From: an uncultured Pelagibacteraceae bacterium
Lineage (GTDB): Bacteria; Pseudomonadota; Alphaproteobacteria; Pelagibacterales; Pelagibacteraceae
NCBI GenBank assembly: GCA_902594865.1
Contig: CACJNV010000003.1
Coordinates: 35,668 to 99,667, forward strand
Reading direction: 5' to 3'
DNA: 64,000 bases
Numbering within the stretch: the first letter of the stretch is position 1; every line of letters begins with the position of its first letter. Shown piece after piece: positions 48 to 6,303 of this stretch. A model generated the notes under the pieces. It was not told the origin of the DNA and searched no databases. It saw only the letters and a list, made by a program, of their open reading frames with translations. Position numbers and translations under genes: made by a program.

Positions 48-1106
48 TTAATCAAAATAAATAAATTCATAATCGCCAGTGTAGCCTGATTTTTTAAAAA
101 TCCATTTCCATGATTGAGTATCAATTAAAGTCTCAGCTGTTAATGCCCAACATTGTAAATTAAATTGTTGTTTATTATTTTTATAAGATTCTACGCAAAT
201 AAATTTATTTTTTGATAATCTTTCAATTTCTTTTAAGGCTTTTTCTAAGTTTTCTAGTTTTAAATTATGCAAAACATTTATACATATGACTAAATCAAAA
301 TGAATGTTTTTAAAACTGAATTTTTTTTTAATATCATGAAAAAAAACTTTATTTAGAAGCTCTTTTTTAGATTTCTTAATAGCGTATTTGGAAAAATCAC
401 AACATAAAATATTTTTATTTTTTAAAATTTTTTGCAACTCATATGCCAAAAAACCTTTACCACTTCCTATATCAAGGATTTTTGAATTTTCATTTAATCT
501 ATATTCTTTAACTAATTTTTTAGCTAAGTAAGTATGATAACCCTCTATGTATCTATATCCACCATATCCAAATTTTCGATTTCCATCCCAATAATCATAC
601 CCATATTTTTTAGAAACATTCATACATGCTACTTTATTGTTATTCATTCTTTCTAAATAATTTCTTTTTACTTTTTTATGTTTAAAGCTTACAAAGTTTC
701 TCAATTTTCCAATTGTCTTTGATTTTTTTTTACTAACTTCTGAAAGTTTAATTTTAAAGACCTCTTCAATATGGTTTTTATCTTTTTCATTTTGCATTTC
801 TAGTTCCTCGACTGCAAAATGAATAACTTTATTTTTCTTTAATATTTTGTTATATAAAAAATTTCTTTTTTTCTCATTTATAGGTAATTGAAATAGACTA
901 TAAAATACAAGACCATCATATTTTGAAATATCTTCTAACAGTTCCATCAATATTAAAGTACTTTCATCATATCTATATTCTGTTGCACTTAGTTGAAAAG
1001 TGTAATCTCTATTTGTACAATAATTTTGAATAACTATATTTTGAACATGTTGTGGAACTCGTTCTCCAAGAAAAGGTCTACTAAATATATAACCCTTTAA
1101 AATCAT
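48..1106 (-). CDS. Fusion protein: N-terminal sporadic carbohydrate cluster (LIC12192/TIGR04323-like) domain + C-terminal class I SAM-dependent methyltransferase
   Basis: N-term 'KGYIFSRPFLGERVPQHVQNIVIQNYC...LSATEYRYDESTLILMELLEDISKYDGLVFYSLFQLP' matches my recollection of the LIC12192 family; C-term 'SKILDIGSGKGFLAYELQ...FDLVICINVLHNL' is a SAM motif I region. Confidence 0.75.
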   Translation of the reverse strand: MILKGYIFSRPFLGERVPQHVQNIVIQNYCTNRDYTFQLSATEYRYDESTLILMELLEDISKYDGLVFYSLFQLPINEKKRNFLYNKILKKNKVIHFAVEELEMQNEKDKNHIEEVFKIKLSEVSKKKSKTIGKLRNFVSFKHKKVKRNYLERMNNNKVACMNVSKKYGYDYWDGNRKFGYGGYRYIEGYHTYLAKKLVKEYRLNENSKILDIGSGKGFLAYELQKILKNKNILCCDFSKYAIKKSKKELLNKVFFHDIKKKFSFKNIHFDLVICINVLHNLKLENLEKALKEIERLSKNKFICVESYKNNKQQFNLQCWALTAETLIDTQSWKWIFKKSGYTGDYEFIYFD

Positions 1107-1873
1107 ATGAATGGATATTTATAATTTATACCTATTTTAGTCATTGGTCTTGTTGTAATTGGCAAAAAGAATTCTCCAATCTTCTTATCCTCGTAGGGTG
1201 AAAAAATATTTTTAAATCTACAGTTTAATGACCATCTGGTCTCATTTTCTAAATTTATTATATTTCCATGTGGTAGTGTTTGGTTGAAAATTAAAAATTC
1301 ACCATATTTTATATTAATCCACTCAACTTTATTTTTAATAATATCAAATATCTGTTTACTACTTTTAATTTTTTTTTCCTTAATTTTTTTCAAGAAGAAA
1401 CTTAGTTTTTTTTGGTTAAGTATATACATAGATTTTGTTTTATAACAATTTACTAGTGGAACCCATAAATTAATTTCATATGGCGAATCTCCAGACCACA
1501 CATCTGAATGTATTGGTAGCAAAGAAGATGAATCATTAGGTACTTGAATACTTAGATTCAATCTTTTTTGCATCATTAATTCATTTCCAACGAGGGTATA
1601 AAGGTGTTCGCGAGCTAGATTAAAGTATTTATTTCTTATCGATTTATTTTTATTGAGATTGTTAAGAATTTTTACTCTTATTTTATTTAAGTCTTTGATT
1701 TTATTGTATTTATGGAATGAGTTGAGATTTAATGTCTTTTTTTTAGTTATTTTTTTTTTTATACATTTATTAAGATATTCTAAAGATTTTTTGTCTTCAA
1801 CTTTACCAATATAATAGCCATTTTGTAGAAATTTATTTATTATTTTATTTTCCTCGTTCTTAAAAAAAGTCAT
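1103..1873 (-). CDS. Putative 2OG-Fe(II) oxygenase (sporadic carbohydrate cluster type)
   Basis: HxD ('PIHSDVWSGDSPYEINLWVPL') followed by distal H and R ('LPHGNIINLENETRWSLNCRF'); 4-bp overlap with the LIC12192-like fusion gene. Confidence 0.7.
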   Translation of the reverse strand: MTFFKNEENKIINKFLQNGYYIGKVEDKKSLEYLNKCIKKKITKKKTLNLNSFHKYNKIKDLNKIRVKILNNLNKNKSIRNKYFNLAREHLYTLVGNELMMQKRLNLSIQVPNDSSSLLPIHSDVWSGDSPYEINLWVPLVNCYKTKSMYILNQKKLSFFLKKIKEKKIKSSKQIFDIIKNKVEWINIKYGEFLIFNQTLPHGNIINLENETRWSLNCRFKNIFSPYEDKKIGEFFLPITTRPMTKIGINYKYPFI

Positions 1874-1924: not shown

Positions 1925-2902
1925 TTATTCAAGATTGATTTTTTGCATTTTTTTTATATTAAAGTATTCTTCATTTGTTAATGGATTTTTGAAAAAATTA
2001 TTTTTAAAGGCATTTTTTAAATCTCTTACAGCACTATCAATATCATGCTTAGTTTTAAAGTTAATTGTGCTTTTAATTTTTTCAGATGATACATGATAAG
2101 ATCTAATATCATCTGTGCTTACTTTTTCCAAAAGTACTTCGTGGTCCATATTTTTTTTAACAATATTGGCAATTTCTAAAACAGGAAAATTTTCAAATCC
2201 AATATTAAAAGCCTGTCGATTTACCAATGAAGAATCTGCTTTGATCAAATCTACATAAGCTTGACACATGTCATTAATATGAATATTGGGTCTTAGTTGA
2301 TCCCCTCCAAAAACTTTAATTTTTTTTGTATGATAAGCTTGATTTGTTAATATATTTACTACTAAATCAAACCTTTGTCTTTTGCTAAAGCCACATACAG
2401 TTGAAGGCCTTGCATTAATAGTAATAAAATTTTCACTTGAATATTTATTAAGAATATTTTCACACATTACTTTATAAACTGAATAGTCAGTTAGTGGTTC
2501 AAGTTTCATATCTTCGTAAACATTTTTTTCCTTTTTTATTCCATAAACAGACGAAGAAGATGCATAAATGAATCTTTCAATTTCATTTTCTTTTGCAGCT
2601 TTAACAAAATTTTCAAAGCAGTCATAATTAATTGATTTACTTAACTTAGGATTAAGGTCATAGCTTGGATCATTGGAAATACAAGCAAGATGAATAACAA
2701 TATTGTGATCTTTAACTGAATTTGTTATTTTTTTAAGATCTCTTATATCTCCTTTAATTTTTTTTAAGTTTGGATGATCTTTTATGTGATCACCATAAAT
2801 AAATAAATCATATACAGTAACTTTATAATTTAATTTTAAAAGTATTTCTGCTAATACTGTTCCCACATATCCCGCACCACCAGGAATAAATATTTTCTTC
2901 AT
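1925..2902 (-). CDS. NAD-dependent epimerase/dehydratase (extended SDR)
   Basis: GGAGYVG Rossmann motif, 'YASSSSVYG', YxxxK ('YSVYKVMCE'). Confidence 0.9.
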   Translation of the reverse strand: MKKIFIPGGAGYVGTVLAEILLKLNYKVTVYDLFIYGDHIKDHPNLKKIKGDIRDLKKITNSVKDHNIVIHLACISNDPSYDLNPKLSKSINYDCFENFVKAAKENEIERFIYASSSSVYGIKKEKNVYEDMKLEPLTDYSVYKVMCENILNKYSSENFITINARPSTVCGFSKRQRFDLVVNILTNQAYHTKKIKVFGGDQLRPNIHINDMCQAYVDLIKADSSLVNRQAFNIGFENFPVLEIANIVKKNMDHEVLLEKVSTDDIRSYHVSSEKIKSTINFKTKHDIDSAVRDLKNAFKNNFFKNPLTNEEYFNIKKMQKINLE

Positions 2903-2904
2903 TA

Positions 2905-3891
2905 TTATTTAATTATGTTATTAGAAATTGAGACTTTTTCAGCATATTCTGCTGAGATTAACTCTTCACCTGTGGCTTCATCCCATACATTACAATTTTC
3001 ACATATAGAAATATTTTTTTTATTTCCTTTAAGGTGTAGTTCTCTCCTAGTATTCAAGATTTTTGATTGCCATAATTCTTTAATAGAGTTTTTCATTATA
3101 TTTCCAGTTGGAAACTTATTGTTGTAATCAACATTACATAATGGAACATCTCCATTAGCAAAAAAAACCATTAATGACCATAATGCTACGCAAGGCAAAT
3201 TTGGTTCAAAACTTTTTTCAACTGATTTATAATTTTCTAGCTGGCCACCCCAATTAAATATATTATGATAATAAACTCTATCATTGTCTGATACATATTT
3301 TTTCCAGAAATTGTAATAGTCATCCCATTCATCCAAATTTTCTTCCTGTCTAATCATTCTAATCCACACTCTACATTTTGGGTTAATTTTGTCTCTTAGC
3401 TGTAAAAACTTAATTGCATTATCTTTTACTACCTCAAAATTCAGTCGAACTCTTATTTTTTCAAATACATCCTTTTTAAGACTATCAATTGACATTATTA
3501 CCATGCCTAGTCCAGCCTCTAATAATTCAGTTGATTTTTTTTCATTAAGCAAAGAAACATTGGTAGCTATTGATGTGTTTGTTATTCCATTTTCGAAAAA
3601 TTTGTTAATTCTTTTAGGCATTTTTTTATCAATTAAAGGCTCACCATCTCTGTAGAGACTTACTCTTTTAATTTTTTCCTTATTTGAGATAATATCGTCA
3701 CTAATTTTTTTAAAAACATCATCTTTCATAACTGGGTAGTTTCTTTCCCAATCATTTATGGTACACATTGGACATCTTGCATTACATGCATTAACAGTTT
3801 CTATTTCAACATATTTTGGATAATCAAGTAATCCATCATATGTAGATTTTAAATCTATTCTTCTATTTAAATATTTATAAAAATCTTTCAT
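2905..3891 (-). CDS. Radical SAM protein with SPASM-like C-terminal cysteines
   Basis: CxxxCxxC ('CNARCPMC'), 'SLYRDGEPLI', C-terminal 'PLCNVDY...CENCNVWD'. Confidence 0.9.
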   Translation of the reverse strand: MKDFYKYLNRRIDLKSTYDGLLDYPKYVEIETVNACNARCPMCTINDWERNYPVMKDDVFKKISDDIISNKEKIKRVSLYRDGEPLIDKKMPKRINKFFENGITNTSIATNVSLLNEKKSTELLEAGLGMVIMSIDSLKKDVFEKIRVRLNFEVVKDNAIKFLQLRDKINPKCRVWIRMIRQEENLDEWDDYYNFWKKYVSDNDRVYYHNIFNWGGQLENYKSVEKSFEPNLPCVALWSLMVFFANGDVPLCNVDYNNKFPTGNIMKNSIKELWQSKILNTRRELHLKGNKKNISICENCNVWDEATGEELISAEYAEKVSISNNIIK

Positions 3892-3895
3892 TAAT

Positions 3896-4408
3896 TTACT
3901 TTATCATTTTTATTACTTTTTTTTTAAATTGATTTATTCCAAGTTTATTTCTAAATTTATGATTCCATTTAGGAAAAATACTGTCGTTTTTTTTAAGAAA
4001 TGGCCCTATTTTACTTTCATGGTAAATTACAAACTTAGTTAGTGGTATCATTGTATGATAGGTATTTAATGGAGTTCTAAAAATATCATGCTTAACTAAT
4101 TTACAAATTTTTTTGATCTTTCCATTATCTTTAAAAAGTATGCTAGCCATTGATCCTTTAATTATATGGTATGTTTCTCCTTTTTTTTGATGTTTGTGAG
4201 GAAGATAGAAGTTTTTTCTTTGTTGTAAAATTACCATATCATGATGTTTATCTAAAGAATTTTTATGTAGACAAATTCTCAAATCTTTTTTTGTTTTTAT
4301 ATAATTTTTCTCTAAAAATTTAATCATTTTATGGCTTAAGAATTTGTAACTATCTTTTAGGAAAAATGATTTTGATTTTGCCTTTTTATCTTCGATTAAG
4401 TTTTTCAT
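3896..4408 (-). CDS. Cupin-fold protein, WbuC-like
   Basis: 'LPHKHQKKGETYHIIKGSMASILFKDNGKI...TYHTMIPLTKFVIYHESKIGPF' resembles WbuC family; sits in polysaccharide operon. Confidence 0.7.
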   Translation of the reverse strand: MKNLIEDKKAKSKSFFLKDSYKFLSHKMIKFLEKNYIKTKKDLRICLHKNSLDKHHDMVILQQRKNFYLPHKHQKKGETYHIIKGSMASILFKDNGKIKKICKLVKHDIFRTPLNTYHTMIPLTKFVIYHESKIGPFLKKNDSIFPKWNHKFRNKLGINQFKKKVIKMIK

Positions 4409-5276
4409 ATCTTGGATTTTTAATTAATTTTTGAATTATGTCTTCTATATTACTTATCTTAAAATTAAGCAATTTATTAAGTTTATTAGACTGTAGACTA
4501 AGATTTTTTGGTCTTTTCTCAGGAAATTTTAAATCATTTATACTAATTTTCTTTATTTTTAATTTAAAATTAGGATACTTATTTTTCAATTTTTTATAAA
4601 TAAGATTATATATTTTATATCTACTATACGATTTAGGACCACAGATATTAAATGTTCCTGTTATATTTTTTTTTAAGAAAAAATGAATTATTTTTTTTAA
4701 ATCATTTACATATAAAGGATTAAATATTTGATCATAAGCTCCAAAAAAATTTCTTTGACCTTTTTGCACTAGATTTAAAAAATCTGTTAAGAGTCCCTTT
4801 ACACGAAGGTTATCACCATAGGTTTTAGCAATCCTTAATATAGAGTAATTTGTAATATTTTTTTTTATATATTTTTCAATTAAGAGTTTTTGCATACCAT
4901 ATAAATTAATAGGATTAGTATTAGATTTTTCAGAATAGTCACCTTTATTACCGGAATATACAAATTCGGTTGAGATGAAAATAAGATGTATATCTTTGTT
5001 CTTAACTTTAGAAATTAAATTTTTCGTATATTTAACATTAATCGAGTGGGATTTTTTTTTATTTTTAAAACATTCGTCTGGATCACTAATTGCACTCAAT
5101 AAAATAATTTTGTTTATATTATATTTCTTAATTAATAATGATACATTATCATTACATAAATCAAATTTAATTCCATTTGGAATTCTATTTTTAAAATAAG
5201 TAAAGAAGTAGTTTTTGTTTGAATTTTTTAAAAATTTTCCAATTTTTCCACTCCCACCTATTATTAATACTTTCAT
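4386..5276 (-). CDS. RfbD-like dTDP-4-dehydrorhamnose reductase family SDR
   Basis: 'LIIGGSGKIGKFL', 'FISTEFVYSGNKGDYSEKSNTNPINLYGMQKLLIEKYI', 'GTFNICGPKSYSRY'. Confidence 0.8.
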   Translation of the reverse strand: MKVLIIGGSGKIGKFLKNSNKNYFFTYFKNRIPNGIKFDLCNDNVSLLIKKYNINKIILLSAISDPDECFKNKKKSHSINVKYTKNLISKVKNKDIHLIFISTEFVYSGNKGDYSEKSNTNPINLYGMQKLLIEKYIKKNITNYSILRIAKTYGDNLRVKGLLTDFLNLVQKGQRNFFGAYDQIFNPLYVNDLKKIIHFFLKKNITGTFNICGPKSYSRYKIYNLIYKKLKNKYPNFKLKIKKISINDLKFPEKRPKNLSLQSNKLNKLLNFKISNIEDIIQKLIKNPRYEKLNRR

Positions 5277-5322: not shown

Positions 5323-6303
5323 TTATTTAAGGTACTTAAACCAGTCAGCCGTTGCAATTTTAATTTTCTTTTTGTCCCAAATTGGAGCATTTTTCCACAA
5401 ATTTATATTATCTAAAAGTTTATTCACACCTTGTTCAATCCCAATTTTTGGTTGCCAATTAAGGAGCCTTTTTGCTTTCTGTATTTTAGCCCATGTAATT
5501 TCTGGTTCACCTGGTCGTTTAGGTATATAAATTTTTTTGCCACCTAGTAATTTCACAATATAATTTACACTATAGCATTTTCCACTACCTACATTGATTA
5601 TTTGATTTTTCTTTTTAAGTTTTATAGATTTTACTAATGCGTCAACAACATCTGTTACATAAGTAAAATCTCTTTTTTGTTTTCCACTTCCAACGATAGT
5701 AAAGGGTTTTTTATTTAATTTTTGAGCCAAGAAGATTCCAAACATTGCCCCGTAGGAACCTGTTGTTCTAGATCTTTCACCATAAATATTAAAAAATCTT
5801 AATGAGGTAACATTTAAATTATAGATTTTCCCCCAGTTCATTACTATGTCCTCACCTAATTTTTTAGTTAAAGCATACGGGTACTGAGGATTGAGCTTTT
5901 CAAGTTCGTCTGTTGGATATTTTTTTGGTATCCCGTAAGATGATGATGAGGCTGCATATATGATTTTTTTAACTTTATATTCACGTGAATTTTCCAAGAT
6001 ATTTAAGGTTCCTTTCACATTTACGTTAAAATATTTAGTTGGTTTATTTATACTTGGCACAATGTCAGCAATTGCTGCTAAATGAATAACCACATCTATT
6101 TTTTTGAAATATTTTTTCCATTCTCCATTTTTAGATATATCTACTTTAATAAGTTTAATTTTCTTAATGGAGTTTTTAATATTGGAAATTTTTCCATTAG
6201 ATAAATCATCAATAATTGTAACAGTGTGATTAAGTTTAACTAGCTGATCAACTAAATGACTTCCCAAAAAACCACAACCCCCTGTAACTAATATTTTTGC
6301 CAT
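5323..6303 (-). CDS. NAD-dependent epimerase (UDP-glucose 4-epimerase-like)
   Basis: 'ILVTGGCGFLGSHLVDQL', 'YAASSSSYGIPKKYPTDE', 'YPYALTKKLGE', 'RFFNIYG'. Confidence 0.9.
   Translation of the reverse strand: MAKILVTGGCGFLGSHLVDQLVKLNHTVTIIDDLSNGKISNIKNSIKKIKLIKVDISKNGEWKKYFKKIDVVIHLAAIADIVPSINKPTKYFNVNVKGTLNILENSREYKVKKIIYAASSSSYGIPKKYPTDELEKLNPQYPYALTKKLGEDIVMNWGKIYNLNVTSLRFFNIYGERSRTTGSYGAMFGIFLAQKLNKKPFTIVGSGKQKRDFTYVTDVVDALVKSIKLKKKNQIINVGSGKCYSVNYIVKLLGGKKIYIPKRPGEPEITWAKIQKAKRLLNWQPKIGIEQGVNKLLDNINLWKNAPIWDKKKIKIATADWFKYLK

Follow-up and report, generated by a model that had tools for sequence, protein, structure and literature searches.

At one end of the window, a 64,000-nucleotide stretch of DNA from an uncultured Pelagibacteraceae bacterium, lies a gene that joins two protein families in one reading frame, followed on its upstream side by a series of genes related to nucleotide-sugar metabolism (Table 1). 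The earlier note on this DNA had assigned the N-terminal ~125 amino acids of the gene product to the LIC12192/TIGR04323 family (here SCC1) and the remainder to a class I SAM-dependent methyltransferase (MT), with neither a stop nor a frame change between the two parts, and the reading frame as well as the profile searches bear this out. In the NCBIfam profile search, residues 3-120 of the fusion cover positions 2-119 of the 122 positions of TIGR04323 (E 2.3e-38, 130.9 bits; curated cut-off 55 bits), and two family alignments showed that the window protein has all invariant SCC1 columns, i.e., GY..R, RxPQHxQN, E43, S70, and A98xE100. The near-full match to the model above its cut-off, the conserved core residues, and the position in a carbohydrate cluster beside TIGR04324 make the domain a member of TIGR04323 (SpoChoClust_1 in NCBIfam). 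Most members of this family stand alone at about 130-170 aa, while the domain in the window is fused to an MT.

Table 1. Genes and domains at the locus of the SCC1-MT fusion, in positions of the window
Feature	Positions	Strand	Basis and remarks
SCC1-MT fusion ORF	48-1106	minus	352 aa from ATG; internal stop/frameshift absent
SCC1 domain (TIGR04323, LIC12192 family; residues 1-120)	747..1106	-	NCBIfam 130.9 bits; predicted serine-recombinase-like fold
Joint SCC1/MT (about residues 121-130, ~10 residues)	717..746	-	Where stand-alone SCC1 of relatives ends and stand-alone MT begins
Class I SAM-dependent MT (about residues 131-352)	48..716	-	Pfam and alignment of 37 relatives; N-terminal YWDG..GYGGY motif
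SCC2, 2OG-Fe(II) oxygenase (TIGR04324)	1103..1873	-	321.9 bits, cut-off 150
NAD-dependent epimerase/dehydratase (SDRa)	1925..2902	-	Pfam; present in 33/37 well-flanked loci
Radical SAM/SPASM protein	2905..3891	-	Profile matches; related genes immediately follow SCC1 in 8 other loci
WbuC-type cupin (TIGR04366)	3896..4408	-	87 bits, cut-off 42
RmlD-like NDP-sugar reductase	4386..5276	-	Pfam
GalE-like NDP-sugar epimerase (SDRg)	5323..6303	-	Profile matches

Residues 193-343 of the fusion match general class I methyltransferase models of Pfam, e.g., Methyltransf_31 (PF13847; 51.8 bits, cut-off 27 bits), and SAM-binding motif I is kept, reading LDIGSGKG in the window and LDIGxGKG in the family, as expected of a class I MT. 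A specific family of stand-alone MTs of ~220 aa aligns to the fusion from about residue 131 to 352. The segment YGYDYWDGNRKFGYGGYRYIEGYH, which had been described as preceding the MT, is placed by the alignment of 37 family members inside the N-terminus of this MT family and is thus not a linker; all 37 members share D44, G45, R47, G50, Y51, G52, and G53 (numbered as in the alignment). The earlier proposal could have failed on two points, but the TIGR04323 match is significant and neither NCBIfam nor Pfam annotates the SCC1-MT architecture as a separate family. Both halves belong to known families, of which the architecture is a new variant.

A survey of domain architectures detected the SCC1-MT fusion in six SAR11 genes, i.e., that of the window and five others, one of them from the isolate HIMB114. 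Among the 80 loci obtained in a genome-wide SCC1 scan, SCC1 and MT occur in a single frame only in the window, in HIMB114 (L026), and in the single-cell genome AG-891-D20 (L027). In the order of the window, 398 genomes were searched, and long open frames were found in G608, G541, and G584, all three with a confirmed MT domain, and in one of the two copies in G422, which has the coordinates of HIMB114. A quick tree search without bootstrap groups the six fusions in a single clade (68 rows, SH-aLRT 96) with one change of state, and in an earlier tree of 52 rows the three fusions then included were grouped with a support of 100. A missed stop or frameshift in sequencing or assembly could produce a single frame of this kind, but nothing apart from the rarity of the architecture speaks for such an artefact. 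Five other SAR11 genes, including that of the isolate, share the architecture at about 60% identity or less to the window and fall in one clade with it; the fusion is thus not a sequencing or assembly error, the artefact is refuted by independent genomes, and its probability is negligible. The fusion was gained once, in a small SAR11 clade. In many bacteria SCC1 and MT are separate yet adjacent genes, and in 5 of 30 such pairs they are already in the same frame, so that the loss of one stop codon could create a fusion of this type.

The gene directly upstream of the fusion encodes SCC2, and its stop codon overlaps the start codon of the fusion by 4 bases (ATGA stop/start). This protein is a clear member of TIGR04324 (SpoChoClust_2, the "sporadic carbohydrate cluster" oxygenase of NCBIfam). 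The SCC2 alignment conserves H, D, H, and R (HxD...H...R), which read HSD, H, and R in the window, thus comprising both the iron-ligand HxD...H motif and the 2OG-related Arg of a 2OG-Fe(II) oxygenase. SCC2 is a separate gene in the window, whereas certain viral contigs have the oxygenase fused to SCC1. Directly upstream of SCC1 and on the same strand, SCC2 was found in all 55 non-redundant loci (55 SCC1 domains at 85% redundancy), which span the Pseudomonadota, Cyanobacteriota, Chloroflexota, Bacteroidota, Planctomycetota, Myxococcota, Acidobacteriota, and Bdellovibrionota. Considering that these loci were collected by the SCC1 motif alone or by the SCC1 family model, and thus found through SCC1 only, their neighbors were not selected for. 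The search of the SAR11 order, which overlaps this set in part, also placed SCC2 upstream of SCC1 in 24 of 24 measured loci, including those of a divergent branch under the TIGR04323 cut-off, and an SCC2 match likewise precedes SCC1 in two further loci at contig starts. In the phylum sample, SCC1 and SCC2 exceed their cut-offs in the same 4 of 299 genomes, and neither SCC2 without SCC1 nor the reverse was seen among family members over the cut-off in this sample and the 55 loci. SCC1 is probably a near-obligate partner of SCC2 rather than a methylation domain. Within our search of open papers, in which no paper mentioning the TIGR04323/LIC12192 family was found, this assignment and the fold proposed below for TIGR04323 appear to be new.

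The genes upstream of SCC2 through the GalE-like epimerase are all on the strand of the fusion, and a split transketolase, a SIS protein, and a PfkB-cytidylyltransferase are encoded ~2 kb past its other side, beyond the window. The MT directly follows SCC1 in 29 of the 45 loci with room for it and lies somewhere in the fetched stretch in 42 of them, and the fact that both are often neighbors points to a shared pathway. Among the loci with at least 4.5 kb on each side (n=37), 35 have the MT and 33 have a transketolase or E1-like pair. The earlier note had read the fusion as Rosetta-stone evidence linking the family to methylation; SCC1 would then be an accessory or substrate-binding domain of the MT, and sugar methylation the function of the family, as the fusion itself and the frequent position of the MT next to SCC1 might indicate. 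However, 34 of the 299 sampled genomes have the MT family, 30 of them without SCC1, and several of the MT-only genomes encode, in clusters without SCC2 and SCC1 and in this order, an epimerase, the PfkB-cytidylyltransferase, HAD and APH-like proteins, TktN, TktC, a radical SAM protein, the MT, and RmlD. Conversely, the MT is absent from an Acidobacteriota locus with SCC1 (L063), from the surroundings of almost all viral fusions, and, within 1.5 kb of SCC1, from many loci of the SAR11-order search, and the MT fusion arose only once. With the MT present in many clusters that lack SCC1, the direct equation of SCC1 with methylation loses support, and we regard it as improbable; the shared pathway of SCC1 and MT stands, while the constant partner of SCC1 is the oxygenase. 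It was also considered that the MT O-methylates a hydroxyl made by SCC2, but this is disfavored, as the MT is common in clusters without SCC2. Given the transketolase clusters that contain the MT and lack SCC2 and SCC1, the SCC2-SCC1 unit seems to be an optional addition to a broader transketolase-MT pathway.

The gene neighborhoods vary in further respects. The wider cluster around the split transketolase and this MT, in most cases with radical SAM, HAD/APH-like, and PfkB-cytidylyltransferase genes and without SCC2-SCC1, is also found in other members of the phylum (L251, L252, L255, L257). The stand-alone MT lies beside a transketolase gene on a Solidesulfovibrio plasmid and beside a split transketolase on one viral contig. 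In the genome of the window, the second subunit of the split transketolase has only about 160 aa, corresponding to the pyrimidine-binding domain alone and half the usual length (L014:17013-17492, ~2 kb beyond the left end of the window), and the same is seen in several SAR11 relatives (L036, L045, L051, L055, and L070). The SCC2-SCC1 pair of the Acidobacteriota genome (L063:9102-10417) has no MT or transketolase within 10 kb, and in an Oscillatoria cluster (L034:10418-10924) a gene of the Uma2 type (putative endonuclease) lies between SCC1 and MT. A second type of cluster is marked by the divergent SCC1 branch, whose members mostly score below the TIGR04323 cut-off and are paired with an SCC2 that is divergent as well (L023:9504-9926, L024:9255-9680, L018:10297-10722, L278-L283). 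Many Bradyrhizobium species have the constant run SDRg-SDRa-TktN-TktC-DegT-DegT-SCC2-SCC1-MT-WbuC, which is a candidate for an operon that makes an unusual O-antigen sugar (L066, L071-L073, L078-L086, L088, L090-L093, L095-L098, L100, L101, L104). The bradyrhizose O-antigen of photosynthetic strains is described as needing an 11-gene cluster (PMC4743980); we do not claim that the cluster is the bradyrhizose pathway, as the searched text of that paper names no transketolase or methyltransferase.

A structure prediction of the N-terminal domain, which had been suggested together with the profile searches, gave a confident model with a serine-recombinase-like fold. The isolated SCC1 of the window, modeled with AF2 and a 58-row alignment (pLDDT 95.1, pTM 0.88), is predicted to have a strand-helix topology of four repeats. 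In a Foldseek search of this model against the PDB, ranks 1-13 were all serine-recombinase chains (best E 4.8e-5, TM-score up to 0.72), and the likeness to resolvases was visible from the sequence before the structure search. A sequence search of the PDB detected no relative of SCC1. The SCC1 profile matched a resolvase profile built here with an E of 7e-4 and a probability of only 26%, YSLFQLP falling on the recombinase motif DRLGR, and a common descent of SCC1 and resolvases thus rests mainly on the fold. The model shares its strand-helix order with the catalytic domain of serine recombinases and resolvases (PF00239), with TP901-1 integrase (3bvp) and gamma-delta resolvase as examples of these best structural matches, but SCC1 lacks the catalytic Ser, Asp, and Arg as well as a DNA-binding domain, and sits in sugar operons. 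At the catalytic motifs of recombinases, the window protein reads GYIFSR and YSLFQLPI; judged by position within strand 1, R and F replace the Ser and Arg of GYxRVS, and in the register of the resolvase profile comparison the D, R, and R of DRLGR are replaced by F, Q, and I. As the catalytic residues are absent, SCC1 is, judged by its sequence, not filed as a serine recombinase. The fold could still suggest that SCC1 acts on DNA, e.g., as a site-specific recombinase switching the polysaccharide locus, but this role is rejected on these residues, with Arg in place of the nucleophile Ser, and neither the lack of a DNA-binding domain nor the constant gene order, which shows no inversion, agrees with it, so that we consider it extremely improbable. 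Stand-alone SCC1 also gave a weak, non-significant Pfam match to poxvirus F16 (PF04708; E 0.13). F16 is a recombinase-like protein reportedly inactive in catalysis, and, unlike SCC1, a protein of eukaryotic viruses without a sugar context.

Polar residues of SCC1 that are near-invariant in two alignments are R10, R16, Q19, H20, N23, E43, S70, R81, and E100, and in the model the conserved R10, R16, Q19, H20, E43, Y69, S70, and E100 are predicted near the ends of successive strands. In a parallel sheet, residues at the strand ends would lie on one side, and we infer from strand ends and conservation, rather than from coordinates, that the conserved residues may form a pocket on one side of the sheet, where recombinases have their active site. 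The divergent SCC1 branch keeps P18, Q22, E43, S70, and E100 more than R10.

SCC2 and SCC1 are also found as one protein of 372 aa, encoded on a contig of genome bin G057 (L015:6437-7555) and identical over its length to that of an IMG/VR contig. A scan with this protein detected the SCC2-SCC1 fusion in 66 viral contigs (L106-L171), some of them cut by contig ends. The curated TIGR04324 and TIGR04323 models recognize both halves of these fusions, mostly below cut-off, and nearly all of the fusions are without this MT nearby. Among the INPHARED phage records, no match was obtained to the window fusion, the viral SCC2-SCC1 fusion, or SCC2. Radical SAM proteins, sugar epimerases, and putative amidinotransferase/carbamoyltransferase genes, the latter judged from the sequence start only, are neighbors of several viral fusions. 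AF2 modeling of a viral fusion with 27 natural fusions aligned (best of five models, described in full) gave a pLDDT of 89.0 and a whole-chain pTM of 0.88, a value that is no inter-domain error map and that refers to a divergent phage protein, not to the SCC2/SCC1 pair of the window. Within these limits, the pTM suggests that the SCC2 and SCC1 domains of the viral fusion are packed in a fixed arrangement. In the viral fusions, the iron motif HxD is replaced by HQG, which is invariant in 27 non-redundant sequences and corresponds to the HxG/HxA motif of halogenases, whereas bacterial SCC2 has HxD. The best PDB matches of the viral model are PhyH-like 2OG enzymes and Fe/2OG halogenases (CurA Hal, SyrB2, SnoN/SnoK, PtlH, EctD), with the CurA halogenase and SyrB2 among the top matches, at a TM-score of only about 0.4. 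To our knowledge, none of these enzymes has a partner with a recombinase fold.

Alternatively, SCC1 could itself be an enzyme, e.g., an isomerase, hydrolase, or phosphosugar lyase, that further converts the oxygenase product; the two genes would then be adjacent because they encode consecutive steps, and no complex would be involved. The near-invariant polar residues, mostly near modeled strand ends as in an active site, and the occurrence of SCC1 as a separate small protein in most bacteria are in line with this. However, in the 299-genome sample and the 55 loci neither family over its cut-off was seen without the other, the viral fusion is predicted as one packed unit, and the divergent branch loses R10 and H20 yet keeps the pairing with SCC2; an enzyme of this kind is thus a possibility to which we give limited weight.

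We lean towards the interpretation that the gene is a natural fusion joining two enzymes from the same cell-surface sugar pathway, in which SCC1 is a partner subunit of SCC2 with a dead recombinase fold and the MT has been tethered to it in one SAR11 clade. SCC1 would have a serine-recombinase fold that lost its catalytic residues and was repurposed as a dedicated subunit of SCC2; both proteins would be made together via the overlapping ATGA stop/start and probably bind each other. SCC2, with its HxD...H...R residues, would oxidize a nucleotide-sugar intermediate, while SCC1 may offer the conserved polar pocket at the sheet edge for substrate recognition, and the MT would act elsewhere in the same sugar pathway. 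The loss of the stop between adjacent genes in one SAR11 clade would have tethered the MT to SCC1, by which the oxygenase, its SCC1 partner, and the MT could act as one assembly, possibly with channeling of the sugar substrate.

More speculatively, and with considerable doubt, TIGR04323 might be a serine-recombinase domain that lost its activity and became an obligatory subunit of an Fe(II)/2OG enzyme; fusion would then have happened twice, once with an MT (in SAR11) and once with its own oxygenase (in aquatic phages), and the phage form, with its HxG, would be a candidate for the first phage-encoded Fe/2OG halogenase. TIGR04323, so far a name without a function, can now be given a fold (by prediction), a constant partner, and a pathway context, which makes its function directly testable. 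If this interpretation is correct, a DNA-cutting fold would have been reused in surface-sugar chemistry, and gene fusions would mark enzymes that work side by side on the unusual polysaccharides of SAR11, Bradyrhizobium, Azospirillum, and cyanobacteria.
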